From assembly GCA_023151275.1 (NCBI GenBank), contig JAKLJI010000001.1, positions 396,409 to 460,408 of the forward strand: a DNA stretch of 64,000 bases, given 5' to 3'. Below the pieces are notes generated by a model. The model did no database searches and was not told where the DNA came from. It saw nothing but the letters and a program-made list of their open reading frames with translations. Shown here piece after piece: positions 6,874 to 31,840 of the stretch. A program made the position numbers and the translations under genes. Numbering within the stretch: the stretch's first letter is position 1; each line of letters opens with the position of its first letter. This stretch comes from Bacteroidia bacterium (GTDB lineage Bacteria > Bacteroidota > Bacteroidia > UKL13-3).

Positions 6874-8592
6874 TTATTTCAACCTGAGCTGACGTTTTAA
6901 CGATTTTAGTTCCTTCTCAGTTAAGGGTCTCCATTCACCCCTTTTCAATTTTCCTTTTTCAAGGCCGGCATAAAGCACCCTATCAAGTTTATCTACCTTG
7001 TAGTTCAGGTGTTCAAACATGCGGTGAATGATTCTATTTTTTCCGGAGTGAATTTCAATACCAACTACATTCTTGTTTTTGGAATCTGGTGCCGCAATAG
7101 CATCCGGTTTAATGGGGCCATCTTCCAAAACAACGCCATTCGAAAGTGTCCATAAATCTGTGGGCTTCAGTGGTTTGTCAAGCGTTGCTTTGTACACTTT
7201 ATGCACCTCATACTTGGGATGCATCAAACGTTGCGCCATCTCTCCATCATTGGTTAATAGCAAAACCCCTGTTGTGTTTCTATCTAATCGTCCAACCGGA
7301 AAAATTCGTTCGCGTATTTTTCCTTCAAACAAATCCATTACGGTATTTCTTCCTTCAGGGTCGTCAAAAGTGGTTATTGCATCTTTCGGTTTATTCAGAA
7401 TGATGTATACCTTCTCCTCAACAGAAAGCCTTGAGCCATTGAATTTTACAACATCACCCTTGCTTACTTTCGAACCCAATTCGGTTACAACCACCTCATT
7501 AATGCTTACCAATCCGGCAGCTATCATCTCATCGGCCTCTCTGCGGCTGCAAATTCCGGCATTCGAGATATACCTGTTCAAGCGAATTGATTCTCCGCCT
7601 TCTAAATCTCTTTCTGCTGAAGGCTTCTGCTTTTTCGATTTTTCTTTTGCAGCAGATATTGCGTCCTCCATTTTTTCTGCATTTCGTTCAAAACGACTCT
7701 TTACGCGCGTTCTTGGTTCAGAACCGGGCTTAGAAAAAGAACCTGGTTTTGATGTTCTTGATGAAGAATATGACTTTTTAAATCCTCTTTCTGTAGAATC
7801 TCCATCAGCCGAACGATTTGGTCTTTCTGAACGATCGTAGCTTGATTTTCTGTCTGTTCCAGGTTTTGAATAGGAACCTGTAGGCCTATCTGAACTTGAA
7901 GAAGAACCTGATCTGGATGAAGAATACGGTTTTTTATAGCCTTTTTCCGATGATTCTCCATCAGCAGACCGACTTGGCCTGTCTTTTCGTTCGGTTCCGG
8001 GTTTTGAGTAGGAGCGGGAAGGTCTATCTGAATTTGAGGAAGAAAAGGATTTTTTAAACCCTCTTTCTGATGAATCTCCATCAAAGGAACGTCTTGGTCT
8101 TTCCGAACGCTCAGAACTTGAATTTCTATCCGTTCTACGTGGAGCAGAGCTGCTGCGTCTTTCTCCGTAAGGTTTTCTATCAGTATCTGAAGAAGCCGAT
8201 TTCTTGAAACGAGGTCCAGACTCCGAAGAACTACTTCTCTTGTAAGGAGTTCTCTTTTCCCTGAATGAATCGGATCTTTCTCCATAGCCTTCACCAGAAG
8301 CTGATCTTGAACCATAGGTTCTTGTTGGCTTTGAATCTGATTTTCCAAAGCGTGAACCCGGTCTTTTTGAAGCAGGGGAGTCTTCAGACTTCTTTTTGCC
8401 TCTTACCAATTTTCCACGTGAACCAGGCGCTTCAAAACGATAATCCTTTTCCTGAGTATCATTCGATTTTCTATTCCAACCTTTTGTTTCGGATTTTTTC
8501 GAGAATGTTTTTTTGCCAGTAGCAGACTTGGCGGCAGTTTTTCTAGCGGCAGGACGATTTCCTGAATTCGGGCCAGATGAATACTTTTTCAT
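6874..8592 (-). CDS. rluB: RsuA/RluB-family 23S rRNA pseudouridine synthase with a long disordered basic N-terminus
   Basis: 572 residues. The C-terminal 240 are a normal RluB/RsuA enzyme: an S4 RNA-binding domain starting at RLNRYISNAGI, then the pseudouridine synthase domain with the catalytic Asp437 in GRLDRNTTG. The first ~330 residues are low-complexity, rich in Ser, Arg, Lys and Gly, and contain near-repeats of an RPxRSxDGxSxExG(F/Y)KK(S/P) unit. Long basic disordered extensions on this enzyme are frequent in Bacteroidota and probably add non-specific RNA binding. RluB modifies U2605 of 23S rRNA in E. coli; the exact site here is inferred. The stop-free opposite-strand frames over the tail are composition artefacts. 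Confidence 0.92.
   Translation of the reverse strand: MKKYSSGPNSGNRPAARKTAAKSATGKKTFSKKSETKGWNRKSNDTQEKDYRFEAPGSRGKLVRGKKKSEDSPASKRPGSRFGKSDSKPTRTYGSRSASGEGYGERSDSFREKRTPYKRSSSSESGPRFKKSASSDTDRKPYGERRSSSAPRRTDRNSSSERSERPRRSFDGDSSERGFKKSFSSSNSDRPSRSYSKPGTERKDRPSRSADGESSEKGYKKPYSSSRSGSSSSSDRPTGSYSKPGTDRKSSYDRSERPNRSADGDSTERGFKKSYSSSRTSKPGSFSKPGSEPRTRVKSRFERNAEKMEDAISAAKEKSKKQKPSAERDLEGGESIRLNRYISNAGICSRREADEMIAAGLVSINEVVVTELGSKVSKGDVVKFNGSRLSVEEKVYIILNKPKDAITTFDDPEGRNTVMDLFEGKIRERIFPVGRLDRNTTGVLLLTNDGEMAQRLMHPKYEVHKVYKATLDKPLKPTDLWTLSNGVVLEDGPIKPDAIAAPDSKNKNVVGIEIHSGKNRIIHRMFEHLNYKVDKLDRVLYAGLEKGKLKRGEWRPLTEKELKSLKRQLRLK
7785..8110 (-). repeat. Degenerate in-frame repeats in the RluB N-terminal extension
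   Basis: Three related ~45-bp segments, at about 7790-7835, 7947-7990 and 8065-8110, each encode a DG(D/E)S(S/T)E(R/K)G(F/Y)KK core preceded by an RPxRS block. They have diverged at many third positions, so the protein pattern is kept better than the DNA, and repeat number may vary between strains. Confidence 0.75.
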
Positions 8593-11098: not shown

Positions 11099-12343
11099 TT
11101 GATACACTATTCACGTTTTGTACTAAAAAATGGGCTAACTGTTATTCACCACCTGGACGAAAACAGCCAATTAGCCGTATTAAATCTGCTTTACAAAGTA
11201 GGTTCAAAGGAAGAAGACCCAAACAAAACAGGGTTTGCTCATTTATTTGAGCATCTGATGTTTGGGGGTACTCCAAACATTCCTGAATTTGATGAACCCT
11301 TACAAGAAGCAGGAGGGGATAGTAACGCATTTACTTCAAACGATATCACCAACTACTACCTAAGCCTGCCACTTTCAAATATTGAAACTGGTTTCTGGCT
11401 AGAAAGCGACCGTATGCGTGGCTTAGCCTTTTCACAGAAAAGCCTTGATGTTCAAAAAGGTGTTGTAATAGAAGAGTTCAAGGAAAGATATTTAAATCAA
11501 CCTTACGGAGATATTTGGTTAAGAATCTTACCCTTAGCCTACAAAGAACATCCCTATTCATGGCCAACAATTGGTAAAGAAATAAGCCATATTGAAGAAG
11601 CCAATATGGACCAGGTAAAATCCTTTTTCAAAAACTTCTATGCACCCAATAATTGCATTTTGGTTGTCGCAGGAAATATTTCCCTGGAAAGGGTTAAAGA
11701 GCTTTGCTCCATTTATTTTGAAGACATACCTGCACAAGAAATTAAACGAATAAACTATCCTCAGGAATCCGTTCAAACCGAGGCAAGATTCCAAGAAATA
11801 CAGTCAGATGTTCCAAGCAATTTAATTCTAAAAGCCTGGCATATGGGTGACCGATTAAGCCAAAATTACTATGCCATGGATTTACTTTCTGATATTCTTG
11901 GCTCCGGAAAAGGATCACGTTTATACGATGAGTTGGTTAAAAAGCAGGCTATTTTCTCGGAAATTGACGCCTACATTTCTGGAGATGCAGAACCAGGATT
12001 ATTCCTCATAGAAGGTAAGTTGTTACCAGAAACTTCATTTCATCAAGCAGAAAACGCAATAAAGGGTGTTCTTGATGAATTTTTCCGCACGGGCTGCACC
12101 GATAGAGAATTAACCATGGTTCAGAATAAAACCGAAACCAATATACGTTTTGGTGATGTTAACCTGCTAAATCGAGCTATGAAATTAGCTTTTGCTGAAT
12201 ACCTAGGAGACATTGAACTGACAAACAAAGAAATCAATTTGTATTTAGATATCACGAAAGAAATACTCCTTTCAGAAGCCAAAAGAACCTTAGTAGATAC
12301 AAATTGCTCAACCATTCACTATAAAAGCTCAAGCAATGACTAG
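11099..12343 (+). CDS. M16 family zinc peptidase, catalytic subunit
   Basis: 414 residues. It has the inverted zinc motif H48-L-F-E51-H52 and a downstream acidic ligand region (VVIEEFKERY), which mark an active M16 (pitrilysin/processing peptidase) subunit. No signal peptide is evident, so it may act in the cytoplasm. The start is the TTG at 11099; the first in-frame ATG falls inside the zinc motif and would remove the active site. The next gene overlaps by 8 bases and encodes a related subunit without the zinc motif, so the two probably form a heterodimer, as in mitochondrial processing peptidase-like pairs. Confidence 0.92.
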   Translation: MIHYSRFVLKNGLTVIHHLDENSQLAVLNLLYKVGSKEEDPNKTGFAHLFEHLMFGGTPNIPEFDEPLQEAGGDSNAFTSNDITNYYLSLPLSNIETGFWLESDRMRGLAFSQKSLDVQKGVVIEEFKERYLNQPYGDIWLRILPLAYKEHPYSWPTIGKEISHIEEANMDQVKSFFKNFYAPNNCILVVAGNISLERVKELCSIYFEDIPAQEIKRINYPQESVQTEARFQEIQSDVPSNLILKAWHMGDRLSQNYYAMDLLSDILGSGKGSRLYDELVKKQAIFSEIDAYISGDAEPGLFLIEGKLLPETSFHQAENAIKGVLDEFFRTGCTDRELTMVQNKTETNIRFGDVNLLNRAMKLAFAEYLGDIELTNKEINLYLDITKEILLSEAKRTLVDTNCSTIHYKSSSND

Positions 12344-13598
12344 AATTTCAAAACCCAGTTTAAGTAACGAAGGATACAACTTACAATTCAAGCCATTTGA
12401 AAAAACATTAACTAAGCAAGGAGTACCATTCTACTTTCAAAGCGCCGGCACACAAGATGTAATTAAGATGGAACTGGTATTCTCAGGTGGAATAATTAAT
12501 CAACCTGCACCAGGCGTTGCAAGCTTCACATGCTCTATGCTTTCTGAAGGAACTAAGTCAAAATCCGGAACCGAACTGGTAAACGCACTTGACTACTATG
12601 GTGCCTATTTTCAAGCAAAAGCTAGTGAATACGATAGCGTAATTACACTCTATTGCCTAAGCAAACACTTAATGGCTGTGCTTCCATTGCTCAACGAAGC
12701 TATTGAGGATTCTATTTTCCCTGAAAAAGCTTTGAATACCTTAAAAAGAAATGCAATTGAACGCTTAAAGGTAAATGAACAAAAAAGCTCGTTTCTGTGC
12801 AGAAGAGAATTCAATTCAAAATTCTTTGGAAATGATCATCCTCTTGGCATATCAAGCAGCATTGAGGATATCAATAAGATTGATATTGCTCAAATAATAG
12901 AATATCACCAGACCTATTTCCTTAAGGGACTAAAATATATTCTTTTAAGCGGAAGATTTGAGGATTCACTTAAGGATAAAGTTGTAGAATCTATCAACTT
13001 CTCGAATAAAGTAAGTTCTAACATAATTTATCCTGAACTCACTACACAAAAAGGAAAGTTTATCGTTACTAAAGAAAAGGCCGTACAAAGCACTATCAAA
13101 CTTGGACACAAAGGAATCTCCCGCACGCATGCATATTTTCCTACATTCCAACTCATGAACACAATTTTGGGAGGCTACTTTGGATCCAGATTAATGAAAA
13201 ACATTCGAGAGGACAAAGGATTAACTTATGGAATTTATTCATCTCATGAAACAAACTCACACTATTCTCTTTGGTACATTGAAAGTGATTTAAATAAAAA
13301 GAACATAGAAATAGCGCGAAAAGAAATATTCTCAGAGATTGCTAAGATTCAAACTGAATTAGTAGAAGCAGACGAACTTAGTACTGCAAAAAACTACTTG
13401 CTGGGTTCCATCTTAAAAAGTCTTGATAATAATCTTTCTCTTTCGGGACGTATGAAATTGATCCTAGACAACGAACTCAATTACGATTACCTCAACGAGT
13501 TTAAAGAAAGGATCTTAAAAGCGACAGCTGAAGAAATACGAGAAATAGCAAATCAGTATTTGCATATAAATGACCTTATTGAAATAACAGTTGAATAA
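12336..13598 (+). CDS. M16 family protein, non-catalytic partner subunit
   Basis: 420 residues with the M16 fold. It matches the family through VFSGGIINQPAPGVASF, the FFGNDHPLG segment and the C-terminal GGYFGSRLMKNIREDKGLTYGIYS block, which includes the substrate-binding R/Y motif of M16 proteins. The HxxEH zinc site is absent (FTCSMLSEGT at that position). In known M16 pairs the inactive subunit supplies the substrate-binding R/Y pair to the active one. The ATG overlaps the stop of the catalytic subunit by 8 bases, implying translational coupling and equal production. Confidence 0.9.
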   Translation: MTRISKPSLSNEGYNLQFKPFEKTLTKQGVPFYFQSAGTQDVIKMELVFSGGIINQPAPGVASFTCSMLSEGTKSKSGTELVNALDYYGAYFQAKASEYDSVITLYCLSKHLMAVLPLLNEAIEDSIFPEKALNTLKRNAIERLKVNEQKSSFLCRREFNSKFFGNDHPLGISSSIEDINKIDIAQIIEYHQTYFLKGLKYILLSGRFEDSLKDKVVESINFSNKVSSNIIYPELTTQKGKFIVTKEKAVQSTIKLGHKGISRTHAYFPTFQLMNTILGGYFGSRLMKNIREDKGLTYGIYSSHETNSHYSLWYIESDLNKKNIEIARKEIFSEIAKIQTELVEADELSTAKNYLLGSILKSLDNNLSLSGRMKLILDNELNYDYLNEFKERILKATAEEIREIANQYLHINDLIEITVE

Positions 13599-15300
13599 AA
13601 CCCTAAAGTACATATTAGCACTATTTGCACTTACCTCATTTCTGATTAGCAACGGCCAGTCCATTGTTATTCGAAAATCATGTAGAAGCATCAATGATAA
13701 TACTATTCTCTGGTCGAGGAATCCGAATAGCTGTACTATCATTGGAAATCTAAGTTTATACGGAAGAGAAAGCAGTGTTAGTCCATTTAATGAAATTTCA
13801 TCTATCATCAACCCCAATAATTTCACCTTTACCCATACAGGTGCAAACCTTCCTACCAATAAAAACTGGGAATACTATTTTAAATGGAATGAAGATTGTG
13901 GCTCCGGTATCATTGAATCTTTTTCCGACACTGTAACTCTAGATGAAATCCAACCCGATATTTCAATAATTGATTCTGTATCTGTAGATCCTTTCACAAA
14001 CAAAGTGCATATTGGATGGAAAGGAAACCGGAGTATCGACTTTGCTTCTTATAGCCTCTACAATTACAATCGACCAGACCCAAGAGTTGCTGAGAATTTA
14101 AAAGACACCTTCTATGTTGATGGTGGCTCTGGAAATCCATCATTAACAAAACTACGTTACGAAATTACCAGTTTGGATAGTTGTGGAAATAGAAATCCAT
14201 TGAGTGGGAACATACATCAAACTATCCAGCTTTTAATTCAAACTGATACTTGCAAAAAAGAAATCAACTTAAATTGGTCGCACTATGAAGGCTGGCCGAG
14301 TATAGATAAATACTATATTCTCTCAATTGTAGGCACCCAAATATTTATCTTAGATAGTGTGAGCGGCTCAAGCACTAGTTATTCCTTGAAAAACACAAAA
14401 AGAACTGAGGCCTTAAAGTTATTCGTAAGAGCCATCAACTCAACTATTCCGGCATCTAGTTCCTCCAACTCGGTTAATTCCATTCCCTATTTTAGATTTC
14501 CTCCGGGCAGAGATTACATTGCCAGTGTTTCACGTGAAACTGGAGGTGTGAAAATATTAATCACAAGACAGGCCGAAGCAACTCCTATTAAGACAAGTCT
14601 AAAAAAGGAAGTAAATAAAATCAGCACTTATATTTCTATCCCAACAAATAGCACGGAGTATTTGGATATAAATACAGATGATAAAAGTATTTATTCCTAC
14701 ACCATAATAAACAACGGCGCATGTTCAAGTGACATAGATTCTTCAAATACATCAAACACAATAACATTAGATATTCAAACAAATATTCAACATCTACTCA
14801 CCTGGAATACCTATTCCACGTGGAACAATGGGGTAGAAAAGTACATAATCAACAGAGGATCAGGAACTAATGAAAATGAAGCTCGGAATTTTATGGTATG
14901 GAAATCAGAAATAGATACAACAACTACAGACGAAATTGAAGAAACAAAAACAGTTTGTTATAGAATAACTGCCACAGAACGAAACTCACCTTACACAAGT
15001 GAATCAAACATAGTTTGCTATACCGTAAAGGGAAATATTTTCTGGCCAAATGCCATATCGATATATGGGATAAACAGAGTTTTCAAACCAATTGGTATCG
15101 GGATTGAAGAAGAAAATTCAAGTATTGAGATATTTGACAGGTGGGGAAGAAATGTGTTCAGTACAAACAATGGAGTAACATGGAATGGGGAGGACTCAAA
15201 TGGAAAAAAAGTAATCCCTGATGTCTACTTTTACAAAGCAATAATAAAACATGGAAATGCAAAAGAAGAATACAATGGCAGTATTCAAGTCATCAACTAG
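13591..15300 (+). CDS. Secreted protein with gliding-motility-type (CHU_C-like) C-terminal T9SS sorting domain
   Basis: 569 residues beginning with a signal peptide (to about residue 23, after SNGQS). The middle contains fibronectin-III-like beta repeats (LNWSHYEGW, LTWNTYSTW). The last ~85 residues form a CHU_C/type B sorting domain: FWPNAIS, IEIFDRWGRNVF, WNGEDSNGKKVIPDVYFY and a final strand. Proteins of this kind cross the outer membrane through the type IX system and are surface-attached or released; the specific role is unknown. The TTG start overlaps the stop of the previous gene by 8 bases. Two ParB-site-like palindromes (14526-14541, 14812-14827) lie inside the coding sequence. Confidence 0.88.
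   Translation: MNKTLKYILALFALTSFLISNGQSIVIRKSCRSINDNTILWSRNPNSCTIIGNLSLYGRESSVSPFNEISSIINPNNFTFTHTGANLPTNKNWEYYFKWNEDCGSGIIESFSDTVTLDEIQPDISIIDSVSVDPFTNKVHIGWKGNRSIDFASYSLYNYNRPDPRVAENLKDTFYVDGGSGNPSLTKLRYEITSLDSCGNRNPLSGNIHQTIQLLIQTDTCKKEINLNWSHYEGWPSIDKYYILSIVGTQIFILDSVSGSSTSYSLKNTKRTEALKLFVRAINSTIPASSSSNSVNSIPYFRFPPGRDYIASVSRETGGVKILITRQAEATPIKTSLKKEVNKISTYISIPTNSTEYLDINTDDKSIYSYTIINNGACSSDIDSSNTSNTITLDIQTNIQHLLTWNTYSTWNNGVEKYIINRGSGTNENEARNFMVWKSEIDTTTTDEIEETKTVCYRITATERNSPYTSESNIVCYTVKGNIFWPNAISIYGINRVFKPIGIGIEEENSSIEIFDRWGRNVFSTNNGVTWNGEDSNGKKVIPDVYFYKAIIKHGNAKEEYNGSIQVIN
14526..14541. other. parS-like ParB binding site 1
   Basis: TGTTTCACGTGAAACT matches the widely conserved parS consensus TGTTTCACGTGAAACA at 15 of 16 positions; the inner 14 bases form a perfect palindrome. 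It lies within the T9SS substrate gene. Confidence 0.75.
14812..14827. other. parS-like ParB binding site 2
   Basis: TATTCCACGTGGAACA matches 13 of 16 consensus positions, with a perfect 12-bp palindrome TTCCACGTGGAA. It is 286 bases from site 1, in the same gene. Confidence 0.6.
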
Positions 15301-15745
15301 ATCAATTCGTATTAATACCATACAGGTGAAGTTTGAATTAAATAAGGAAAAGATTCAAACATGGATAAAGCAAGTAGCCAAAAAACATGGCAAAATAGCT
15401 ACAGACATTACATATACACTTTGCACAGATGATTACCTACTTGAAATAAACAAGCAATACCTTAACCACGATTACTATACTGATATCATAACATTTGACC
15501 TATCTTCTGAAGAAAAACTACTTGAAGCCGATATCTACATCAGTTTAGACCGGGTAAGAGAGAATGCAAAAAATTATAAAATTACCATCAAAAAAGAACT
15601 CCTTCGCGTAATGATTCATGGCATACTACATCTATGCGGCTTGAAAGATAAAACTGAATTTGACCAAAGACAGATGCGCCAAGCCGAAGATGAGGCGCTA
15701 TATTTGTACGATAAAAAATACCAGGTTCCACGTGAAACATATTAA
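15275..15745 (+). CDS. ybeY: rRNA maturation endoribonuclease YbeY
   Basis: About 156 residues from the ATG at 15275; an ATG at 15251 in the same frame is possible but less likely, because the family N-terminus begins later. YbeY is a zinc-dependent RNase for 16S rRNA 3'-end maturation and ribosome quality control. The zinc motif reads HGILHLCGLKD: the first two His are present, but the third ligand of HGxLHLxGYDH is Asp, which I believe is usual in Bacteroidota members. Its start lies inside the end of the T9SS substrate gene and its end overlaps mnmG by 14 bases. Confidence 0.9.
   Translation: MAVFKSSTRSIRINTIQVKFELNKEKIQTWIKQVAKKHGKIATDITYTLCTDDYLLEINKQYLNHDYYTDIITFDLSSEEKLLEADIYISLDRVRENAKNYKITIKKELLRVMIHGILHLCGLKDKTEFDQRQMRQAEDEALYLYDKKYQVPRETY
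15724..15739. other. parS-like ParB binding site 3, covering the mnmG start codon
   Basis: GGTTCCACGTGAAACA matches the parS consensus at 14 of 16 positions. The GTG start of mnmG (15732-15734) is the right centre of the CACGTG core, and the ybeY stop lies just after the site. Confidence 0.7.
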
Positions 15746-17609
15746 TTTATTTCCAAGCTACGATATTATAGTTGTTGGTGCAGGACATGCAGGATGTGAA
15801 GCAGCAAATGCAGCAGCAAAACTCGGGTCAAAAGTTTTATTGATTACCATGGATATGAACAAGATTGCACAAATGAGCTGCAATCCAGCCATGGGAGGAA
15901 TAGCAAAAGGGCAGATAGTACGAGAAATTGATGCGCTTGGTGGAGGATCAGGAATTGTAACTGATCTATCTACTATTCAATTCAGAATGCTGAATAGATC
16001 AAAAGGTGCTGCCATGTGGAGTCCTAGAGCTCAAAGCGATAGGATGGTTTTTAGTGCAGAGTGGAGAAATTTACTTGAAGCAAATACCAATATTGATTTC
16101 TGGCAGGACATGGTAACTGAACTGATTATTGAAAATGGAAAATTAAGTGGCGTAAAAGTCGGAATTGGTATTGAGTTTCGGGCAAAGGCAGTTGTACTTA
16201 CTAATGGAACATTTCTAAATGGAATTATCCATATTGGACAAAAGCAATTTGGAGGGGGAAGAATAGGGGAGAAATCCGCAAAAGGATTAACTGAGCAATT
16301 GATTCAACTTGGATTTGAATCAGGAAGGATGAAAACCGGAACACCTCCAAGAATCGATGGTCGATCTTTGAATTATGAGGCAATGGAAGAACAACAGGGC
16401 GACGAAAATCCAGGAAAATTTTCGTACTCGCCAAAAACTAAACCTGTAACTAATCAACGGTCCTGCTTCATAACATACACCAATGAAAAAGTACACGAAA
16501 TCCTAAGAACTGGATTCGATGATTCACCCATGTATGCGGGGAGGATAAAAGGTCTTGGACCTAGATACTGTCCGTCCATAGAAGATAAAATAAACCGATT
16601 TGCTGAAAGAGATAGGCACCAAATATTTGTTGAGCCGGAAGGATGGAATACCGTGGAAATCTATGTAAATGGATTCAGCACATCATTACCAGAAAACATT
16701 CAACTCAAAGCACTTCAATTAATTCCAGGTTTTGAAAATGCAAAAATGTTCAGACCGGGTTATGCAATTGAATATGATTATTTTCCACCTACACAGCTAA
16801 AACCAAGTCTCGAAACACATCAAATTGAAGGACTATTTTTTGCCGGACAAATAAATGGAACAACAGGCTACGAAGAAGCTGCTTGTCAAGGTTTAATTGC
16901 AGGAATTAATGCTCATCAAAAAATAAACGAAAAAGAAGCATTTGTTCTTAACCGATCAGAAGCATACATCGGCGTACTTATTGATGACCTTATCAACAAA
17001 GGAACAGACGAACCATATCGCATGTTCACGAGCAGGGCAGAGTACAGATTACTCCTCCGCCAAGACAATGCTGATATCCGTTTAACAGAAAAAGCATACA
17101 AATTAGGAATGGTAAACAAACAAGAACTCGATGCAGTAAAATCAAAAATAACATCAACAAATGCTACAATCGAATTTTTTAAGAAAACTTCCATAACACC
17201 AAACGAAGTAAATCCAACCTTAGAAAAACTTGGAACGAACCCAATAACCCAAAATTACAAGCTGGAACAGATTCTTGCTCGCCCACAAATCTCAATAACA
17301 GATTTGATTAACCTACCAACTGTTAACCAATGGACCCAAACCTTAAGCGAAGAAGTTCTGCTTCAAACAGAAATCCAGCTGAAGTATGCTGGATACTTAG
17401 AAAAAGAACAACAGCTGGCAGATAAAATGCAAAGGTTAGAGTATATTCAAATATCACCTGATTTTGATTTTTCAAGTATTAAATCACTATCGAGTGAAGC
17501 ACGAGAAAAACTGAATAAACACAAACCGGAAAATATTGGACAAGCATCACGAATAAGCGGAATATCTCCATCAGATATATCAATTCTTCTGGTACATTTA
17601 GGCCGATAA
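15732..17609 (+). CDS. mnmG: tRNA uridine-5-carboxymethylaminomethyl(34) synthesis enzyme MnmG (GidA)
   Basis: 625 residues from the GTG at 15732. With MnmE it installs the (carboxymethyl)aminomethyl group at U34 of tRNAs that read split codon boxes. The FAD-binding GAGHAGCEAA motif starts near residue 15; MSCNPAMGGIAKG, GTFLNGIIHIG, the FAGQINGTTGYEEAACQG block and the C-terminal helical domain complete the family pattern. A longer frame begins further upstream at 15660, but the GTG gives the normal N-terminus (a short leader, then YDIIVVGAGHAG). mnmG (gidA) is a classic neighbour of replication origins, which fits the sites around it. Confidence 0.96.
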   Translation: MKHINLFPSYDIIVVGAGHAGCEAANAAAKLGSKVLLITMDMNKIAQMSCNPAMGGIAKGQIVREIDALGGGSGIVTDLSTIQFRMLNRSKGAAMWSPRAQSDRMVFSAEWRNLLEANTNIDFWQDMVTELIIENGKLSGVKVGIGIEFRAKAVVLTNGTFLNGIIHIGQKQFGGGRIGEKSAKGLTEQLIQLGFESGRMKTGTPPRIDGRSLNYEAMEEQQGDENPGKFSYSPKTKPVTNQRSCFITYTNEKVHEILRTGFDDSPMYAGRIKGLGPRYCPSIEDKINRFAERDRHQIFVEPEGWNTVEIYVNGFSTSLPENIQLKALQLIPGFENAKMFRPGYAIEYDYFPPTQLKPSLETHQIEGLFFAGQINGTTGYEEAACQGLIAGINAHQKINEKEAFVLNRSEAYIGVLIDDLINKGTDEPYRMFTSRAEYRLLLRQDNADIRLTEKAYKLGMVNKQELDAVKSKITSTNATIEFFKKTSITPNEVNPTLEKLGTNPITQNYKLEQILARPQISITDLINLPTVNQWTQTLSEEVLLQTEIQLKYAGYLEKEQQLADKMQRLEYIQISPDFDFSSIKSLSSEAREKLNKHKPENIGQASRISGISPSDISILLVHLGR

Positions 17610-17612
17610 TAT

Positions 17613-17620
17613 TTACTTTG
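17613..17620 (+). promoter_or_regulatory. Possible -7 box TTACTTTG before the methyltransferase gene
   Basis: One mismatch to TAnnTTTG. It lies 4 nt before the GTG start at 17625, the same spacing as in several perfect cases in this window. It would allow transcription separate from mnmG. Confidence 0.3.
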
Positions 17621-17624
17621 CAAA

Positions 17625-18524
17625 GTGGAAGAAATTGAATTTTGTCCGGTTTGCAAATCAAAAAAAACCGAAAAAAAATACACCTGCACGGATTACGTAG
17701 CAACTCAGGAAAAATTCACAATCCTTGAGTGTAAAGAATGTACACACCAATTTACAAATCCAAGACCAAAAGAGGAGGAAGCAGGGAGATATTATCAGTC
17801 CGAAAACTACATCTCCCATGCTGGAAGTGATAAATCTAAACATGGTATTACATACTTTTTGTATGATTTGGTCAGAAACTACTCAATCAGCAAAAAGCTA
17901 AATCTCATAAAAAAATACCAAAGTAATGGCGAATTACTTGACCTTGGCTGTGGCCTTGGCTATTTCTTAAATGGGGTTAAAAAGGAAGGAACTTTCAATG
18001 CAAGTGGCTCAGACATTTCCTTGGAAGCAATCAACTATGTGAAAGAAACCTTTGGGATTGATATCAAACCAGAATCCAATTTAATGGATTTCACAAATCA
18101 TCAATTCAAAGTAATAACTCAGTGGCATGTACTTGAACATGTTTACAGGCTAGAGGATAGATTGAAGGAGTTAAAATATCTATTACATCCAAAAGGTACA
18201 ATGTTTATTGCAGTCCCAAACTCATCATCCTGGGACGCTAAACATTATAAAAACTATTGGGATGGCTATGATGTGCCAAGACATATTCATCACTTTAACC
18301 AAACAAGTTTGAAAATACTTTTAACCAAGAATGGCTTTGAACTGAAAGAACAGAAAACCCTATGGTTTGATGCACCCTATATCTCAATGAGATCAGAATA
18401 CCACAAAGGAAAAGGTGCAATTGGATTTATCCTTGGAGGATTCAAAGGAATCTACTCAAATATCCACTCACTATTTACAGGAAATCCATCTACTATTTTA
18501 TTCGTAGTAGAACACAAACAATGA
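17625..18524 (+). CDS. Class I SAM-dependent methyltransferase with N-terminal zinc ribbon
   Basis: 299 residues from the GTG at 17625. The N-terminus has a four-Cys zinc ribbon (C7, C10, C36, C39). The methyltransferase core has motif I LLDLGCGLGYFL and the acidic ending of strand 2 in GSDIS, then QWHVLEHV and the AVPNSSSWDAKHY region, as in methyltransferase_11/UbiG-like proteins acting on small molecules or sugars. The substrate is unknown. It lies 15 bases after mnmG and overlaps the next lipoprotein gene by 4 bases (ATGA). I believe this neighbourhood recurs in Bacteroidota genomes. Confidence 0.88.
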   Translation: MEEIEFCPVCKSKKTEKKYTCTDYVATQEKFTILECKECTHQFTNPRPKEEEAGRYYQSENYISHAGSDKSKHGITYFLYDLVRNYSISKKLNLIKKYQSNGELLDLGCGLGYFLNGVKKEGTFNASGSDISLEAINYVKETFGIDIKPESNLMDFTNHQFKVITQWHVLEHVYRLEDRLKELKYLLHPKGTMFIAVPNSSSWDAKHYKNYWDGYDVPRHIHHFNQTSLKILLTKNGFELKEQKTLWFDAPYISMRSEYHKGKGAIGFILGGFKGIYSNIHSLFTGNPSTILFVVEHKQ

Positions 18525-20098
18525 AAAAACTTAGTAACATATTAATTATTCTGGTATTAAGTTCTTGTGCTCAAATTGTAAGTCCAACCGGTGGCCCGAA
18601 AGATGATCAAGCACCAAAGGTAAAAAGCATAGTACCGGAAAATGAAACAACAAACTTTAACTCACAAACCATCAAAATACGTTTTGATGAATTCATTGAT
18701 ATTAAAGACCCAGAACAAATAATTATTTCACCCATAATTAAAGAAAAACCAATCATTGAATCAGATGGTAAATCTATTTCGATAGATTTAAAAAGAAGTA
18801 AACTCGAACGAGATAAAACCTACACCATCAATTTTGGAAATGCAATCGCAGACATTCATGAAGGAACACGAATAGATAACTTCAGTTATGCATTCACTAC
18901 AGGACAAATCATAGATACTTGCAAATTCCATGGAGTCGTAATTTCAGCACTGACCGGTAAACCAGAGAAAGCATTTACTATCGGATTATATACAAGCAAT
19001 AAGGTAGAAGACAGTCTATACTTAAATCACTACCCCATATACCTGAGTAAAACGAATGAAAAGGGAAACTATGAAATAAAGAACCTACCCAACCAATCAT
19101 TTGCTTTATTTGGATTTAATGACCAAAACAAAAACCTAAAGTTTGACCCAAACGAAGATTTCAGCTTAATAAATACTGCCAAAAATCCATGTGAAACACT
19201 CAATAGTATCAATTTAAAAAGTAATCAAGCAAAGCTATTCCCAAGGAATAAAATAACAGATACACTTCAACTTAATGCAACAACCTATGCATTAAGCATT
19301 TACGATAATCAAAGCATTGATATTGATCCCAAAAATCACTATTCAAGACAACAAAAATTTGATAATCAATTAGATACACTTTACTATTATACAAGAACAC
19401 GAAATGATTCTGGTAATACAGTCCTTTCATTTTTGGAAAACAAAGAACCTAGGGAAGTAAGCATAAAGAATAAAAGAAAATCTAAACCACAAGCAATTGA
19501 ATTAGATCTACCAAGTTCCTTAAATCCAAAGGAAACATTGGAACTCAAATCAAAAACACCTTTTCATATTACTTCTAAGGATTCAATTCTACTTAAACTG
19601 GATACATTACCCATTTCAGCGAAAATTCTCCGTACAGACTCTTTTACTATCCAAATCCCACTAGAATCAAAGCAGGGTGAAAACTATGAACTAGAGCTTA
19701 AAGATTCTGCATTAACGGACATTTGGGGTGTTAAACTTAGGAAGCGTAAATACAGATTTTCAATAAACCAGGAGAAAGAAACAGGAAGCATTCAATTCAA
19801 TTGGACTAATTCAGCCAATGAAAACTATATCATAGAATTGATATCAGACACAGAAAAACCAGAACGTATTATACTTATCTACGTAGAAAATAGCAAAAAA
19901 GAACTGCTTAGTTTTATGAAACCTGGCGTTTATCAACTCAGGATATCAAAAGACTTAAACAAAAACAAGAAATGGGATTCAGCTGATTGGAGATTGAATA
20001 GAGAAATGGAGCCAATCACAATTCTACCATTAAAGATTACAGTTAAATCCAACTGGGAAATAGAACAAAGTATCAACCTGGATAACATAGACTGGTAA
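18521..20098 (+). CDS. Ig-like (Big_5) domain lipoprotein
   Basis: 525 residues. The lipoprotein signal MKKLSNILIILVLSSC places the lipidated Cys at residue 16. Directly after it comes a Big_5-type Ig-like domain: SPTGGPKDDQAPKV, then IRFDEFIDIKDPE, and YTINFGNAIADIHEG. A second beta domain (about 140-230) resembles a carboxypeptidase-regulatory fold with calcium-like loops (DQNKNLKFDPNEDF). The Big_5 N-terminus is widely conserved in Bacteroidota next to cell-envelope genes; its function is unknown. It is the last gene before the proposed origin, and its stop overlaps the left arm region of the inverted repeat at 20099. Confidence 0.85.
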   Translation: MKKLSNILIILVLSSCAQIVSPTGGPKDDQAPKVKSIVPENETTNFNSQTIKIRFDEFIDIKDPEQIIISPIIKEKPIIESDGKSISIDLKRSKLERDKTYTINFGNAIADIHEGTRIDNFSYAFTTGQIIDTCKFHGVVISALTGKPEKAFTIGLYTSNKVEDSLYLNHYPIYLSKTNEKGNYEIKNLPNQSFALFGFNDQNKNLKFDPNEDFSLINTAKNPCETLNSINLKSNQAKLFPRNKITDTLQLNATTYALSIYDNQSIDIDPKNHYSRQQKFDNQLDTLYYYTRTRNDSGNTVLSFLENKEPREVSIKNKRKSKPQAIELDLPSSLNPKETLELKSKTPFHITSKDSILLKLDTLPISAKILRTDSFTIQIPLESKQGENYELELKDSALTDIWGVKLRKRKYRFSINQEKETGSIQFNWTNSANENYIIELISDTEKPERIILIYVENSKKELLSFMKPGVYQLRISKDLNKNKKWDSADWRLNREMEPITILPLKITVKSNWEIEQSINLDNIDW

Positions 20099-20204
20099 AA
20101 TGTCGCACTCTGTTAATAAACCTGTGCAAAAGGGTCATAATTAGAAGGGGATAACTATTTAGGCTTGTCACAATGTTAATCAAGGTTGATAAAAGTGCGA
20201 CATT
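20099..20204. repeat. Perfect 11-bp inverted repeat in the candidate origin
   Basis: AATGTCGCACT at 20099-20109 and AGTGCGACATT at 20194-20204, 84 bases apart. Beyond the perfect arms the similarity continues imperfectly inward (TTAATAAACCT against TTTATCAACCT, 9 of 11). The distance is too long for a terminator, so two copies of a protein-binding element in opposite orientation are more likely. Confidence 0.8.
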
Positions 20205-20483
20205 TCAATAAGGAAGCTAACATTGCGAAAGAAAATCTTATCCAAAAAAATAAGTGGATATCAAAATCAACACAAGGGATAAAATCAAACAAAACACAGT
20301 AAATCAATGGATAATCATGTGAATTTACTGTTAAGAAAAAGGTTCTAACTAAAAAATAGCTATCAACGAAAAGAAGTAATCCACCAAATTCACAGACTAT
20401 ATTATAAATACATATTAATTAGAAATAAGTCTATAATACTTTATCTGTGTGAATTGGAATGAATCAAACTTCTAAAAAGAATT

Positions 20484-20491
20484 TACCTTTG
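20484..20491 (+). promoter_or_regulatory. -7 box TACCTTTG of the pheS operon
   Basis: A perfect TAnnTTTG box ending 25 nt before the pheS ATG. Transcription would begin near 20495. No -33 box at standard spacing. Confidence 0.5.
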
Positions 20492-20516
20492 AAACCGGTT
20501 GTAAAGCCAACAGCAT

Positions 20517-21533
20517 ATGAAGGAAAGAATACAGGAACTAATAAAGCATATTGAAGAAGTAAAATTGAAGACTTCTGAAGAAGCTGAACAGTTTCGCCTA
20601 AAATTTTTATCAAAAAAAGGTGAGATAAGTACCCTTGTTGAGAATTTTAGAGAGATTGCAGCTGATCAGAAAAGAGAGACCGGACAAATTCTTAATCAGT
20701 TAAAACAGCTGGCCCAACAAAAATGGCAAGAGGCTCAACAGCTTTCTGATTCAACTAAAAAACAAAGCAATAAGTCAGCAGTAGATTATACACTTCCCTC
20801 CGAGCCACAATTTTCGGGAGCGCGACATCCGCTTTCTATTGTGGAAAATGAAATAATACAAATCTTGAGTAAACTCGGTTTTGTTTATGCAGAAGGACCA
20901 GAGATTGAGGATGATTGGCATAATTTCTCCGCATTAAATTTTCCTCCCAACCACCCTGCAAGAGATATGCAGGATACCTTCTTTATCGATGAAGAAATTG
21001 CATTACGAACGCATACTTCCTCGGTACAAGTAAGATTAATGGAAACCCAAAAGCCACCTATTCGGGCAATCATGCCAGGTAGGGTTTACCGCAATGAAGC
21101 TATTTCAGCTCGTGCAAATTGCTTTTTTCACCAGGTTGAAGGCATTTACATTGACAAAGGTGTTTCGTTTACGGATTTAAAGCAAACCTTATACTACTTT
21201 GTACAACAGCTATTTGGTGAGGATATCCAAGTTCGTTTTCGTCCAAGTTTTTTCCCTTTTACTGAACCCAGTGCAGAAATGGATATCAGTTGCCAGCTTT
21301 GTAAAGGCAAAGGATGTAATGTTTGCAAACAAACAGGTTGGCTTGAAATTTTGGGATGTGGAATGATTGATCCTAATGTATTGAAAGCTTCAGGCATTGA
21401 CCCCGAGGAATACTCAGGGTTTGCTTTTGGTATGGGTATTGAGCGAATAGCCATGTTGAAGTACGATGTAAAGGATTTAAGAACCTATTTCACCAACGAT
21501 ACCCGCTTTTTATCTCAGTTCAGAAATTATTAG
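20517..21533 (+). CDS. pheS: Phenylalanine--tRNA ligase alpha subunit
   Basis: 338 residues. The N-terminal coiled-coil arm (about 1-90) is followed by the class II aminoacyl-tRNA synthetase core: GARHPLSIVENEI, motif 2 PGRVYRNEAISARANCFFHQVEG, and motif 3 GFAFGMGIERIAM. The Cys-rich CQLCKGKGCNVCKQTGWLEILGCG insertion is usual in Bacteroidota and many bacterial PheS. It charges tRNA(Phe) as part of the PheS2-PheT2 enzyme; pheT is not adjacent. It is the first gene to the right of the candidate origin and lies 8 bases before the deoxyhypusine-synthase-like gene. Confidence 0.97.
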   Translation: MKERIQELIKHIEEVKLKTSEEAEQFRLKFLSKKGEISTLVENFREIAADQKRETGQILNQLKQLAQQKWQEAQQLSDSTKKQSNKSAVDYTLPSEPQFSGARHPLSIVENEIIQILSKLGFVYAEGPEIEDDWHNFSALNFPPNHPARDMQDTFFIDEEIALRTHTSSVQVRLMETQKPPIRAIMPGRVYRNEAISARANCFFHQVEGIYIDKGVSFTDLKQTLYYFVQQLFGEDIQVRFRPSFFPFTEPSAEMDISCQLCKGKGCNVCKQTGWLEILGCGMIDPNVLKASGIDPEEYSGFAFGMGIERIAMLKYDVKDLRTYFTNDTRFLSQFRNY

Positions 21534-21541
21534 AAACAAAT

Positions 21542-22516
21542 ATGACTAAAGGACCTATTTCAAATTTTATTGAGCATCATTACAAGCACTTTAATGCAGC
21601 TGCTTTAATGGATGCAGCAAAAGGCTACGAAACCCACCTTACAGAAGGCGGAAAAATGATGATTACCCTTGCAGGTGCTATGAGTACGGCTGAACTGGGA
21701 AAATCGTTAGCAGAAATGATTCGTCAGGGAAAAGTAGATATTATTAGCTGTACCGGCGCTAATCTTGAAGAAGATATCATGAATTTGGTGGCGCACAGTC
21801 ACTACAAGCGCGTTCCCAATTACCGCGATTTAAGCCCTCAGGAAGAATGGGATTTACTTGAGAACCATTATAACCGCGTTACTGACACTTGCATTCCTGA
21901 GGAGGAAGCATTTAGAAGATTACAAAAACATATTCACGGTGTATGGACCAGGGCGGAGCAAGCTGGTGAGCGTTATTTCCCGCATGAATACATGTATAAG
22001 ATTCTTTTGAGTGGAGAGCTTGAACAATACTATGAGATTGATCCAAAAGACAGCTGGATGCTGGCAGCAGCTCAGAAAAATCTTCCGATTGTTGTACCGG
22101 GTTGGGAAGATAGCACCATGGGTAACATCTTTGCCTCTTATGTTATCAAAAATGAACTCAAAGCAAGCACCATGAAAAGCGGTATTGAGTACATGGTTTG
22201 GTTAGCAGATTGGTACAGAAACAATTCTTCAGGGAAAGGCGTAGGATTTTTCCAAATAGGTGGTGGTATTGCGGGAGATTTCCCAATTTGCGTAGTTCCA
22301 ATGATGTATCAGGATTTGGAATGGCATGACGTTCCATTCTGGAGCTATTTCTGCCAAATTTCTGATTCTACAACTTCCTACGGCTCTTATTCCGGAGCTG
22401 TACCAAACGAGAAGATAACCTGGGGTAAACTTGATATTAATACACCAAAATTTATTGTTGAAAGTGATGCAACAATAGTTGCACCCTTGATTTTTGCCTG
22501 GATTCTAGGCTGGTAA
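21542..22516 (+). CDS. Deoxyhypusine synthase family protein
   Basis: 324 residues with the deoxyhypusine synthase fold: the LAGAMSTAELGKSLAEMI and CTGANLEED segments bind NAD, and K296 in TWGK corresponds to the catalytic lysine that forms the enzyme-imine with the aminobutyl group of spermidine. The ending AT(I)VAPLIFAW also fits. Bacteria lack eIF5A, so classical hypusination is not expected. Related bacterial proteins transfer the aminobutyl group to small polyamines (homospermidine-type) or have unknown acceptors. It is co-oriented with pheS and ends at a strong terminator. Confidence 0.88.
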   Translation: MTKGPISNFIEHHYKHFNAAALMDAAKGYETHLTEGGKMMITLAGAMSTAELGKSLAEMIRQGKVDIISCTGANLEEDIMNLVAHSHYKRVPNYRDLSPQEEWDLLENHYNRVTDTCIPEEEAFRRLQKHIHGVWTRAEQAGERYFPHEYMYKILLSGELEQYYEIDPKDSWMLAAAQKNLPIVVPGWEDSTMGNIFASYVIKNELKASTMKSGIEYMVWLADWYRNNSSGKGVGFFQIGGGIAGDFPICVVPMMYQDLEWHDVPFWSYFCQISDSTTSYGSYSGAVPNEKITWGKLDINTPKFIVESDATIVAPLIFAWILGW

Positions 22517-29740: not shown

Positions 29741-31840
29741 TTACTTCTTACGGTTTTCAAAGTTTTCTTTTCCTTTATCCAAGAAGGCTACAAAGTTTGA
29801 AATGTTCAAATCGTAGGCTTTTGGCGATACCAGCGGGTTGCCCTCGTGATCAATCAACACATAATAGGGTTGTGCGTTGGCATTGAACCGGCTAACCTGA
29901 AAATCAAAGTTTTGCTTTCCAATGGTTTTCTTTTCTTTTCCATCAAACTTGCTGGTGTACCATTCGTTTTGTGGCAACTCTGTTTTATCGTCTACATAAA
30001 GTGCTACAACAACATAATCCTCTCTAAGCCTTTTCAACACTTCTGGGTCGCTCCATACATTGGCTTCCATTTCGCGGCAGTTTACGCAACCGTGACCGGT
30101 AAAGTCGATGAAAACGGGTTTGTTAACCTTTTTGGCGTATTCCACAGCTTCTTTGTAATCAAAGAATCCATTCAGTTTGTGTGGCAATTTGAACAAGTTG
30201 CTAAAGCGCACATTTTTAGATTCGCTTGAAGCAGCATGTGAAGTAACCTGACCTTCCATTTCGCGTTCATCAACCAAGTCAAAATCGAGTGTTTCTTGTG
30301 GTGGCAGATAACCGGAAAGTGCTTTTAGTGGTGCACCCCATAATCCAGGAATCAGGTAAACCACAAAGGTAAAGGTGGCAATTGCAAGGAATAGACGAGG
30401 AACAGAAATATAAGGCACATCGCTATCGTGACTAAACTTGAGCTTACCAAGCAAGTAAAGTCCCATCAAGCTAAATACTACAATCCAAATGGCAAGGTAA
30501 ACCTCACGGTCTAATAAACCCCAATGGTAGGTTTGGTCCGGAATCGAAAGAAACTTGAAAGCAAGTGCCAATTCTAGGAATCCCAGTACAACTTTTACCG
30601 AGTTTAGCCATCCGCCTGATTTTGGCAGGTTTTGCATAGCGCTTGGGAAAATGGCAAAAAGTGTAAATGGAAGAGCAAGTCCGGCACCAAATGCGGCCAT
30701 TCCTAACATGGGTTTCAAAAATGCTCCACCCACCGCTTCAATTAGCAGACTTCCAACAATGGGGCCGGTGCAACTGAATGAAACCAAAACTAAAGTGAAG
30801 GCCATAAAGAACACACCAAGGAACGAGCCCATGCTGCTTTTTGAATCTACGGAATTTACAAATTGATGAGGGAGTGTAATTTCAAACAATCCAAGGAAAG
30901 ATGCAGCGAAAACTATAAAAATGATGAAGAACAAAATGTTTGGAACCCAGGAAGTGCTTAACCAGTTTCCAAACTCCGGTCCAAGGCCAAACAAGGAGAA
31001 TACAAAGCCAAGTGAGGAATAAATAGCAATAATGCTCATTCCAAAGGTAAGCGCCCTACGAATTCCCTGAGCTCTGTTATCGCTACGTTTGGTGAAAAAA
31101 GTAACGGTCATTGGAAGCATTGGGAACACACAAGGAGTTACAACTGCAACCAAACCACCTAAAAATGCAACAAGTAAAAAGGCCAGAAAACTTCCTTTTG
31201 TTGAACTTGTTGCCTCTGCTGGCGGCTCTATAGCAGATGATGAATCAGCAGCGGCTGTTGAGTTGGAGCTTTCTACTGCCTGTGTATCTGCCGGAATGGT
31301 TGCTGTGGCTGGAGCAACCGGTTCAACAGTTGCCTCTTTGTTTGGTTCTGCTGTGGCTGTTTCCTTTCCTGATGTTTTTATCTTCCAAGTTAATTTGTCG
31401 TTATGGAGAACACATTGGCCGGTAACGGTTGAGCATTCCTGGTATTCCATTTCAACAGAAATCTCAGGATTGGCCTTTAAAATCTTTACTTTTTGCCTAA
31501 ACTCGGCTTTTCCGGTAAAGGTTGAAACTTCCCCTTCGAATACCTCATCAAACTTTTTGTGACTTCCAATGGGTCGGGTTTTTCCAACAAGTTGATAGGA
31601 GGGGTCTTTTTTAAACTCAAGAAAAGCAACTATAGGGCCTACTTTATCGCTGAAATCATTGGAATAAATGTACCAGTCTTTGTCAATTTTACACGACATG
31701 ATTAGCTCTACTTCATCACCTGGTTTAGGGTTTGAGGGTGAAAAGGATGTTGTCCAGGTTGGTTTTTGCTTCATTTGGGCGAACCCCAATAGGTTCATTC
31801 CCAAAAGAAAAAGCGATAGAAGTAATCTACGAAACTGCAT
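29741..31840 (-). CDS. dsbD: DsbD-family thiol:disulfide interchange protein
   Basis: 699 residues. A signal peptide (to about 22) precedes an N-terminal DsbD-alpha/DsbC-corrector-like domain (to about 155), then a Ser/Ala/Thr-rich linker (about 160-215). About eight transmembrane helices follow, including the TPCVFPMLPMTV and SCTGPIVG segments with the redox Cys of DsbD-beta. A C-terminal thioredoxin domain has a CVNC active site in DFTGHGCVNCREME. It carries electrons from cytoplasmic thioredoxin to periplasmic proteins. It has a perfect -7 box 22 nt upstream and leads the operon with gmhA. Confidence 0.92.
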   Translation of the reverse strand: MQFRRLLLSLFLLGMNLLGFAQMKQKPTWTTSFSPSNPKPGDEVELIMSCKIDKDWYIYSNDFSDKVGPIVAFLEFKKDPSYQLVGKTRPIGSHKKFDEVFEGEVSTFTGKAEFRQKVKILKANPEISVEMEYQECSTVTGQCVLHNDKLTWKIKTSGKETATAEPNKEATVEPVAPATATIPADTQAVESSNSTAAADSSSAIEPPAEATSSTKGSFLAFLLVAFLGGLVAVVTPCVFPMLPMTVTFFTKRSDNRAQGIRRALTFGMSIIAIYSSLGFVFSLFGLGPEFGNWLSTSWVPNILFFIIFIVFAASFLGLFEITLPHQFVNSVDSKSSMGSFLGVFFMAFTLVLVSFSCTGPIVGSLLIEAVGGAFLKPMLGMAAFGAGLALPFTLFAIFPSAMQNLPKSGGWLNSVKVVLGFLELALAFKFLSIPDQTYHWGLLDREVYLAIWIVVFSLMGLYLLGKLKFSHDSDVPYISVPRLFLAIATFTFVVYLIPGLWGAPLKALSGYLPPQETLDFDLVDEREMEGQVTSHAASSESKNVRFSNLFKLPHKLNGFFDYKEAVEYAKKVNKPVFIDFTGHGCVNCREMEANVWSDPEVLKRLREDYVVVALYVDDKTELPQNEWYTSKFDGKEKKTIGKQNFDFQVSRFNANAQPYYVLIDHEGNPLVSPKAYDLNISNFVAFLDKGKENFENRKK

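Follow-up and report, generated by a model that had tools for sequence, protein, structure and literature searches.

Placement of the chromosomal replication origin (oriC) beside gidA/mnmG has been reported for Gammaproteobacteria (PMC10225481, PMC6323995), and in a Bacteroidetes endosymbiont without dnaA the origin was assigned by skew alone (PMC2768785). The search rule for a basal unwinding system (BUS) published in PMC8287927 calls for one box that has no more than 2 mismatches, allows for a second box with at most 4 mismatches that is at most 3 bp away, and demands three or more NAN trios within 16 bp. No published Bacteroidota origin with the placement described below was found, in a search that left most subscription papers, preprints and DoriC outside its scope.

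The window, that is, the whole stretch of 64,000 nucleotides analysed here (G000:C11:396409-460408), belongs to contig C11 (752 kb) of a 3.90-Mb host genome in 76 contigs. An earlier note on this DNA had singled out 418 bases without genes as a candidate replication origin; the map of open reading frames gives exactly these limits, with flanking frames at 18521-20098 and 20517-21533 that are both on the plus strand, as had been claimed, and the high AT content noted at the time is reflected in a GC content of 0.297. All genes around the gap run on the plus strand, in the order ybeY, mnmG, a methyltransferase gene, a gene for an Ig-like (Big_5) protein whose start looks, by eye, like that of a lipoprotein, the gap, pheS and a deoxyhypusine synthase gene (Table 1). 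The gap is very probably the chromosomal origin, common to one Bacteroidota family. This reading, which is also that of the earlier note, is supported because position and size of the gap are conserved family-wide, because a conserved module of paired boxes was discovered there without a supplied DnaA motif, because the strand-corrected skew switches locally at the gap, and near it in four of six relatives' contigs, and because parS clusters beside the gap both here and in a complete relative; it is weakened by a contig-wide skew minimum that lies elsewhere and by the skew of the complete relative, which prefers another place, as well as by boxes that are mostly weak, a host copy without three trios on the expected strand and a module consensus that is not specific.

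Table 1. Features of the candidate origin locus (window positions; mismatches of box-like words are to TTATCCACA)
Feature	Positions	Strand	Remarks
weaker parS-like site	8410..8425	.	2 mismatches
parS-like site TGTTTCACGTGAAACT	14526..14541	.	1 mismatch
parS-like site TATTCCACGTGGAACA	14812..14827	.	1 mismatch
ybeY	15251..15745	+	PF02130
parS-like site GGTTCCACGTGAAACA	15724..15739	.	1 mismatch; ybeY/mnmG junction
mnmG/gidA	15744..17609	+	PF01134; start approximate
methyltransferase gene	17625..18524	+	PF13489
Ig-like protein (Big_5) gene	18521..20098	+	PF13205; left neighbour of the gap
candidate oriC gap	20099..20516	.	gene-free, AT-rich, GC 0.297; Ig-like protein gene to pheS
second origin motif AGTGCGACATT	20099..20109	-	left arm of inverted repeat
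DnaA-box-like word	20111..20119	-	2 mismatches
DnaA-box-like word	20123..20131	-	2 mismatches
DnaA-box-like word	20146..20154	-	2 mismatches
DnaA-box-like word	20184..20192	-	2 mismatches
second origin motif AGTGCGACATT	20194..20204	+	right arm of inverted repeat
DnaA-box-like word TTATCCAAA	20238..20246	+	1 mismatch
DnaA-box-like word	20253..20261	-	2 mismatches
DnaA-box-like word	20306..20314	-	2 mismatches
conserved pair, upstream box TAATCCACC	20377..20385	+	2 mismatches
conserved pair, downstream box AAATTCACA	20386..20394	+	3 mismatches
probable unwinding element	20394..20447	.	50-bp windows with the lowest G+C of the gap begin at 20394-20398
trio-like stretch CTATATTATAAATAC	20397..20411	.	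one box-proximal CTA, then A at 20401, 20404, 20407, 20410
TACCTTTG	20484..20491	+	taken to resemble the Bacteroidota -7 promoter element
pheS	20517..21533	+	PF01409, PF02912; right neighbour of the gap

The arrangement was followed through a sample of 40 genomes including the host, 37 of which had a match to pheS and from which 30 loci were fetched. The Ig-like gene, an AT-rich gap of 390-481 bp and pheS are kept together in every one of the 21 same-family genomes in which pheS was matched (three other members of the family gave no such match and were left out of the count); among the nine fetched loci from other families, none has this arrangement. A scan of named genomes, covering the best 80 of 596 relatives, yielded eight loci arranged in this way (L109-L115 and L175), all of them from metagenome bins; two are genomes already counted and L110 is visible only to a contig edge. 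L135 and L143 reach a contig edge and were left out, which leaves 70 of the remaining 72 loci among these best 80 of 596. In none of these 70 does the gap exceed 350 bp (L180); the tail of the left neighbour is by eye unlike that of the Ig-like protein, and the fetched flanks contain no parS-like site at 1 mismatch or fewer. The Ig-like gene is found closely 3′ of mnmG also in the other-family genomes G036 and G038; there, pheS is 250 kb away and on another contig, respectively.

With up to 2 mismatches from TTATCCACA, the gap contains 8 words, against 1.90 (sd 1.45) in dinucleotide shuffles, and 8 is reached in none of 300 of these; the earlier note had counted at least six words close to the DnaA box. 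When at most 1 mismatch is allowed a single word is left, TTATCCAAA, a number equalled or exceeded by 43 of 300 shuffles and hence not significant, so that the case rests on the two-mismatch cluster and on the comparison across relatives. Taken together, the 27 family gaps hold 189 box-like words at up to 2 mismatches (58.8, sd 6.7, in shuffles) and 28 at up to 1 mismatch (4.3, sd 2.0); most boxes are weak. Along C11 the density of words with up to 2 mismatches peaks at the gap and in the 418-bp window just left of it, with 8-9 per 418 bp; the mean is 1.48 and the next peak away from the gap reaches 7. One window of contig C55 likewise has 8 box-like words per 418 bp.

Gibbs sampling of the right part of the 27 gaps, for which no DnaA motif was supplied, returned AAAAaAAgTTATcCaccaAATTCACA, placed alike in 26 of the 27; this module consists of two box-like words arranged head to tail. 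In fixed register, the upstream word is at most 4 mismatches from TTATCCACA in 19 of 26 modules and the downstream word in 22 of 26. A 30-bp profile built from 25 relatives, with the host genome left out, ranks 20369-20398 first in 892 kb (C11 plus C55), with 27.99 bits versus 16.12 for the runner-up; the 18-bp core alone gives a smaller margin (23.02 versus 20.25 bits). The runner-up of the core profile, C11:750270, is near the contig-wide skew minimum and was considered as an origin; it was rejected, being inside an open reading frame, which we take for ffh, with neither a box cluster nor a parS-like site nearby. As a search string the module consensus is not specific: at up to 2 mismatches it occurs at 10 places in the host genome versus 2 for a reversed control, and among the matches listed for relatives at this threshold one is in a gap (G005); at 1 mismatch the gap is the sole place in the host genome.

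Directly after the box pair, at 20394, begin the most AT-rich 50 bp of the gap; these windows have 7 G+C per 50, and only 6 windows as poor in G+C exist across the 64 kb. A three-base period follows the module on its 3′ side throughout the family: the longest runs of A sum to 120, versus 68.7 (sd 5.6) after shuffling, and those of T to 76 versus 61.1 (sd 5.4), values whose significance the shuffles somewhat overstate since the gaps share ancestry. The host boxes TAATCCACC and AAATTCACA, at 2 and 3 mismatches and 0 bp apart, fall within the BUS rule for pairs, as do those of 11 of the 26 family modules in fixed register, and 16 of 26 have a single box at up to 2 mismatches. The strand that carries the trios in B. 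subtilis is the one complementary to TTATCCACA. On this strand, within 16 bp, the host gap has a run of two consecutive 3′-NAN-5′ trios where the BUS rule asks for at least three; at least three are present in 16 of 26 family modules (8.1, sd 2.2, shuffled), and on the box strand in 25 of 26 (11.5, sd 2.5).

The earlier note had described the DNA, from lines counted by hand, as C-rich to the left and mostly G-rich to the right of the gap, and the raw GC skew indeed goes from -0.100 at 18001-20000 to +0.063 at 20001-22000. That this change is not simply due to the coding strand, as was also claimed, agrees with a strand-corrected skew calculated from third codon positions; its best changepoint within 100 or 150 kb falls 140 bp from the gap centre, and within 100 kb it is -0.129 on the left and +0.061 on the right (0/500 permutations). 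Gene spacing restricts the resolution of such changepoints to 1-2 kb, and the skew data taken together are precise to a few kb at best; a bootstrap of the host changepoint has an interquartile range of -381 to +362 bp and a wide 5-95% range, -4.8 to +78 kb. An expectation of the earlier note that was not borne out is a minimum of the chromosome-wide cumulative skew within a few hundred bases of 20.3 kb: over C11:236409-620408 the raw cumulative curve is V-shaped with its minimum at window position 30286 and a plateau from about 15 to 32 kb, and the contig-wide minimum, raw and corrected, is near 748 kb.

In the relatives, the strand-corrected skew switches 3.7-13.3 kb from the gap in four of six contigs, at 13/500 permutations or better: the offsets are +3.7 kb in G022 (0/500), -4.6 kb in G015 (13/500), -11.8 kb in G003 (1/500) and -13.3 kb in G002 (0/500). 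G023 has a weak changepoint at +3.6 kb (50/500), and that of G020, at +28 kb, is not significant (237/500). Pooling of all six within 55 kb gives -0.060 on the left, +0.040 on the right and a changepoint at -4.9 kb (0/1000 permutations); its bootstrap range (5-95%) is wide, -54 to -1 kb, and its peak is nearer parS/mnmG than the gap.

Farther away, some of the skew is adverse. On C11 it is negative again from about 600-620 kb to near the contig end, beginning some 190 kb right of the gap. The stretch of C11 from about 600 to 748 kb thereby presents about 140 kb of negative skew on the expected leading-strand side, for which an inversion or a misjoin of the contig are alternatives. In G023, the sole single-contig genome in the list of relatives, for which skew was taken from 34 sampled 20-kb stretches, denser near the gap, a two-step model places the switch preferably at 0.02-0.48 Mb; a switch at the gap, at 3.08 Mb, scores 39 units worse. 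Because the parS cluster of G023 sits close to its gap, the adverse skew in both genomes would be due to rearrangement of a single arm. In the host it is the flank downstream of pheS that is disturbed, in G023 the upstream one, and these opposite sides suggest that the rearrangements were independent.

The nearness of mnmG and of parS-like sites, pointed out in the earlier note, stands: three of the sites are 4.4-5.6 kb left of the gap, each with 1 mismatch. The whole host genome has 21 places with up to 2 mismatches from TGTTNCACGTGNAACA, versus 11 for a reversed control; the CACGTG core is intact in five of these, four in the window (8410, 14526, 14812 and 15724) and the fifth on contig C33. 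G023 has 24 such places (control 21), six with the core; three of them, at 3087223, 3088177 and 3090160, are clustered within 3 kb and 4.5-7.4 kb from its gap, and the other core sites are at 0.25, 1.98 and 3.01 Mb. Sites with at most 1 mismatch from TGTTYCACGTGRAACA are present in 38 of 40 genomes. Since parS is found within 1 kb of mnmG in 21/21 family genomes and in 12/15 other-family genomes having both, the linkage of parS and mnmG looks older than the placement of the gap beside pheS.

That the candidate is situated away from dnaA, again as noted earlier, follows from the contigs. The host dnaA is on C55, an intact open frame of 492 residues with the motif GGRDHSTVIHA, which we take to be the DnaA signature; no dnaN was recognised by eye among its neighbours. 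Since each end of C11 is 335 kb or more from the gap, dnaA must be at least that far away. Among 21 family genomes with both dnaA and pheS, the two are on different contigs in 19, which by itself is no proof of distance, and 1.14 Mb apart in G023. G014 is unlike the other 20: 2.4 kb separate its dnaA from pheS, which places dnaA within a few kb of the gap (G014:C16:32015-36802). The dnaA contig was considered as the site of the origin and discarded; near dnaA the number of box-like words per 418 bp does not exceed 5, and the raw skew of this contig dips only slightly, near 80 kb, at a distance of 31 kb from dnaA.

Several other explanations have to be weighed. The origin might be nearby but outside the gap, for instance 4-6 kb farther left, where ybeY, parS and mnmG meet, with the gap as an accessory DnaA-binding region. 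The pooled changepoint of the relatives and the constancy of parS beside mnmG, within the family and largely beyond it, speak for this; the reading frames from 11099 to 20098 abut or overlap and thus leave no long gene-free stretch, box density on C11 is highest at the gap, and the changepoint of the host genome coincides with it, for which reasons we regard such a placement as unlikely. An origin several hundred kb off, the switch at the gap being then the edge of an inverted segment, is quite improbable, even though it would accommodate the contig-wide minimum near 748 kb and the region preferred by the sampled skew of G023. It would have to explain why the switch is seen again near the homologous site in four other genomes, why parS clusters lie by the gap in both the host and G023, and why the conserved module sits there; moreover, the end of C11 from 745 kb is without a box cluster (its count of box-like words per 418 bp never exceeds 5), beyond C11:700 kb there is no parS-like site with an intact core at up to 3 mismatches, and the disturbed flank is not the same in the two genomes.

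The gap is also directly 5′ of pheS and carries TACCTTTG, which we liken to the Bacteroidota -7 promoter element. By word counts, TACCTTTG is present in 10 of the 27 family gaps versus 0.5 expected, and it is probably a pheS promoter within the origin gap. That the gap as a whole should serve pheS as a regulatory leader, with a promoter, an attenuator or a riboswitch, and owe its conservation to gene expression instead of replication, is very improbable: an Rfam search of the gap yielded nothing up to E = 1, a terminator scan found none, promoter-like matches in a promoter scan were at chance level, and pheS is without this gap in those other-family loci that could be judged; boxes, skew and parS would be left unexplained. 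The clustering of DnaA-box-like words would fit a DnaA-titrating or DnaA-reactivating locus (datA- or DARS-like) as well, yet such loci are not expected at a skew switch beside parS, nor are paired boxes followed by an AT-rich stretch expected of them, and we give this explanation hardly any credence.

Returning to the gap as oriC, a second motif deserves attention. The inverted repeat mentioned in the earlier note is present as perfect 12-nt arms (20098-20109 and 20194-20205) with 84 nt between them, and each arm carries AGTGCGACATT. The top 8-mers across the 27 gaps are ATGTCGCA and TGCGACAT (14 gaps versus 0.1 expected, by word counts), and within the 11.5 kb that the 27 gaps add up to, ARTGCGACATT has 18 copies, spread over 12 gaps. 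Contigs of seven family genomes, 2.33 Mb that include the gap of each, have 6 copies: 4 are from gaps, and the other 2 share an intergenic region that lies 46 kb left of the host gap. Seven named family loci have 8 copies, every one of them in the gap. Genome-wide, copies also occur outside gaps: 47 were counted in 15 family genomes (43 Mb), versus 27 for a reversed control, and 7 of the 47 were placed in gaps (G000, G004, G005 and G008), the remainder amounting to about one per Mb, near chance; the host accounts for 8 copies, 2 of them in the gap (control 2). The motif is patchy, being absent from the gaps of the three congeners G001-G003, and among the papers listed by a literature search none was related to it by title.

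The AGTGCGACATT pair 46 kb left of the gap, at C11:370454 and 370648 (194 bp apart), is between divergent genes that by eye are acyltransferase-like and isoaspartyl-peptidase-like. It was considered as a DnaA-titrating locus and dismissed, as there is one weak box there.

Our guess is that ARTGCGACATT is the site of an origin regulator. A fuller proposal, namely that family origins carry this motif, frequently in at least two copies, for a protein other than DnaA and ParB which controls or marks initiation, and that melting proceeds via a relaxed trio in which the A of the box strand is conserved instead of the middle A of the complementary strand, is put forward tentatively, as less likely than not.

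To what is observed at the gap (position, conservation, box enrichment, AT-rich stretch, parS cluster and local skew switch) we would add, as the steps that we infer, binding of DnaA, melting, initiation and the direction of the forks. DnaA, encoded elsewhere, might load onto the several weak boxes across the gap and onto the conserved pair at 20377-20394, and from this pair could extend along a single strand of the adjoining AT-rich stretch, from about 20394 onwards. This stretch would be melted by DnaA, whereupon helicase would load bidirectionally. Segregation of the new copies would be the task of ParB, bound to the parS cluster that lies 4.4-5.6 kb left of the gap.

If so, the likely origin of a little-known Bacteroidota family is fixed at a conserved spot unrelated to dnaA. 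Estimates of growth rate from read coverage, the orientation of chromosomes and work on strand bias could be anchored on it; the 27 homologous gaps provide material for asking which DnaA boxes and which trio bases are truly conserved, and the second origin-enriched motif may be used as bait for pulling down its binding protein.

Compared with known systems, the gap resembles catalogued oriCs (DoriC / Ori-Finder; PMC6323995, PMC10225481) in being intergenic and AT-rich, with a DnaA-box cluster near a local skew switch; unlike these, it sits between an Ig-like protein gene and pheS, its boxes are mostly 2 mismatches from the consensus, and it has an extra origin-enriched motif. With BUS (PMC8287927, PMC6669920) it shares paired boxes 0 bp apart followed by an AT-rich stretch and, family-wide, the three-base period; it differs in that the host gap has fewer than three trios on the expected strand and in that the stronger period-3 signal of the family is A on the box strand. 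Judged from its sequence, the host gap is thus BUS-like in layout, yet its own copy falls outside the published BUS rule. As for the E. coli-type oriC between gidA (mnmG) and mioC (PMC10225481), two genes separate mnmG from the gap and the right neighbour is pheS, but here, too, mnmG is only a few kb away.
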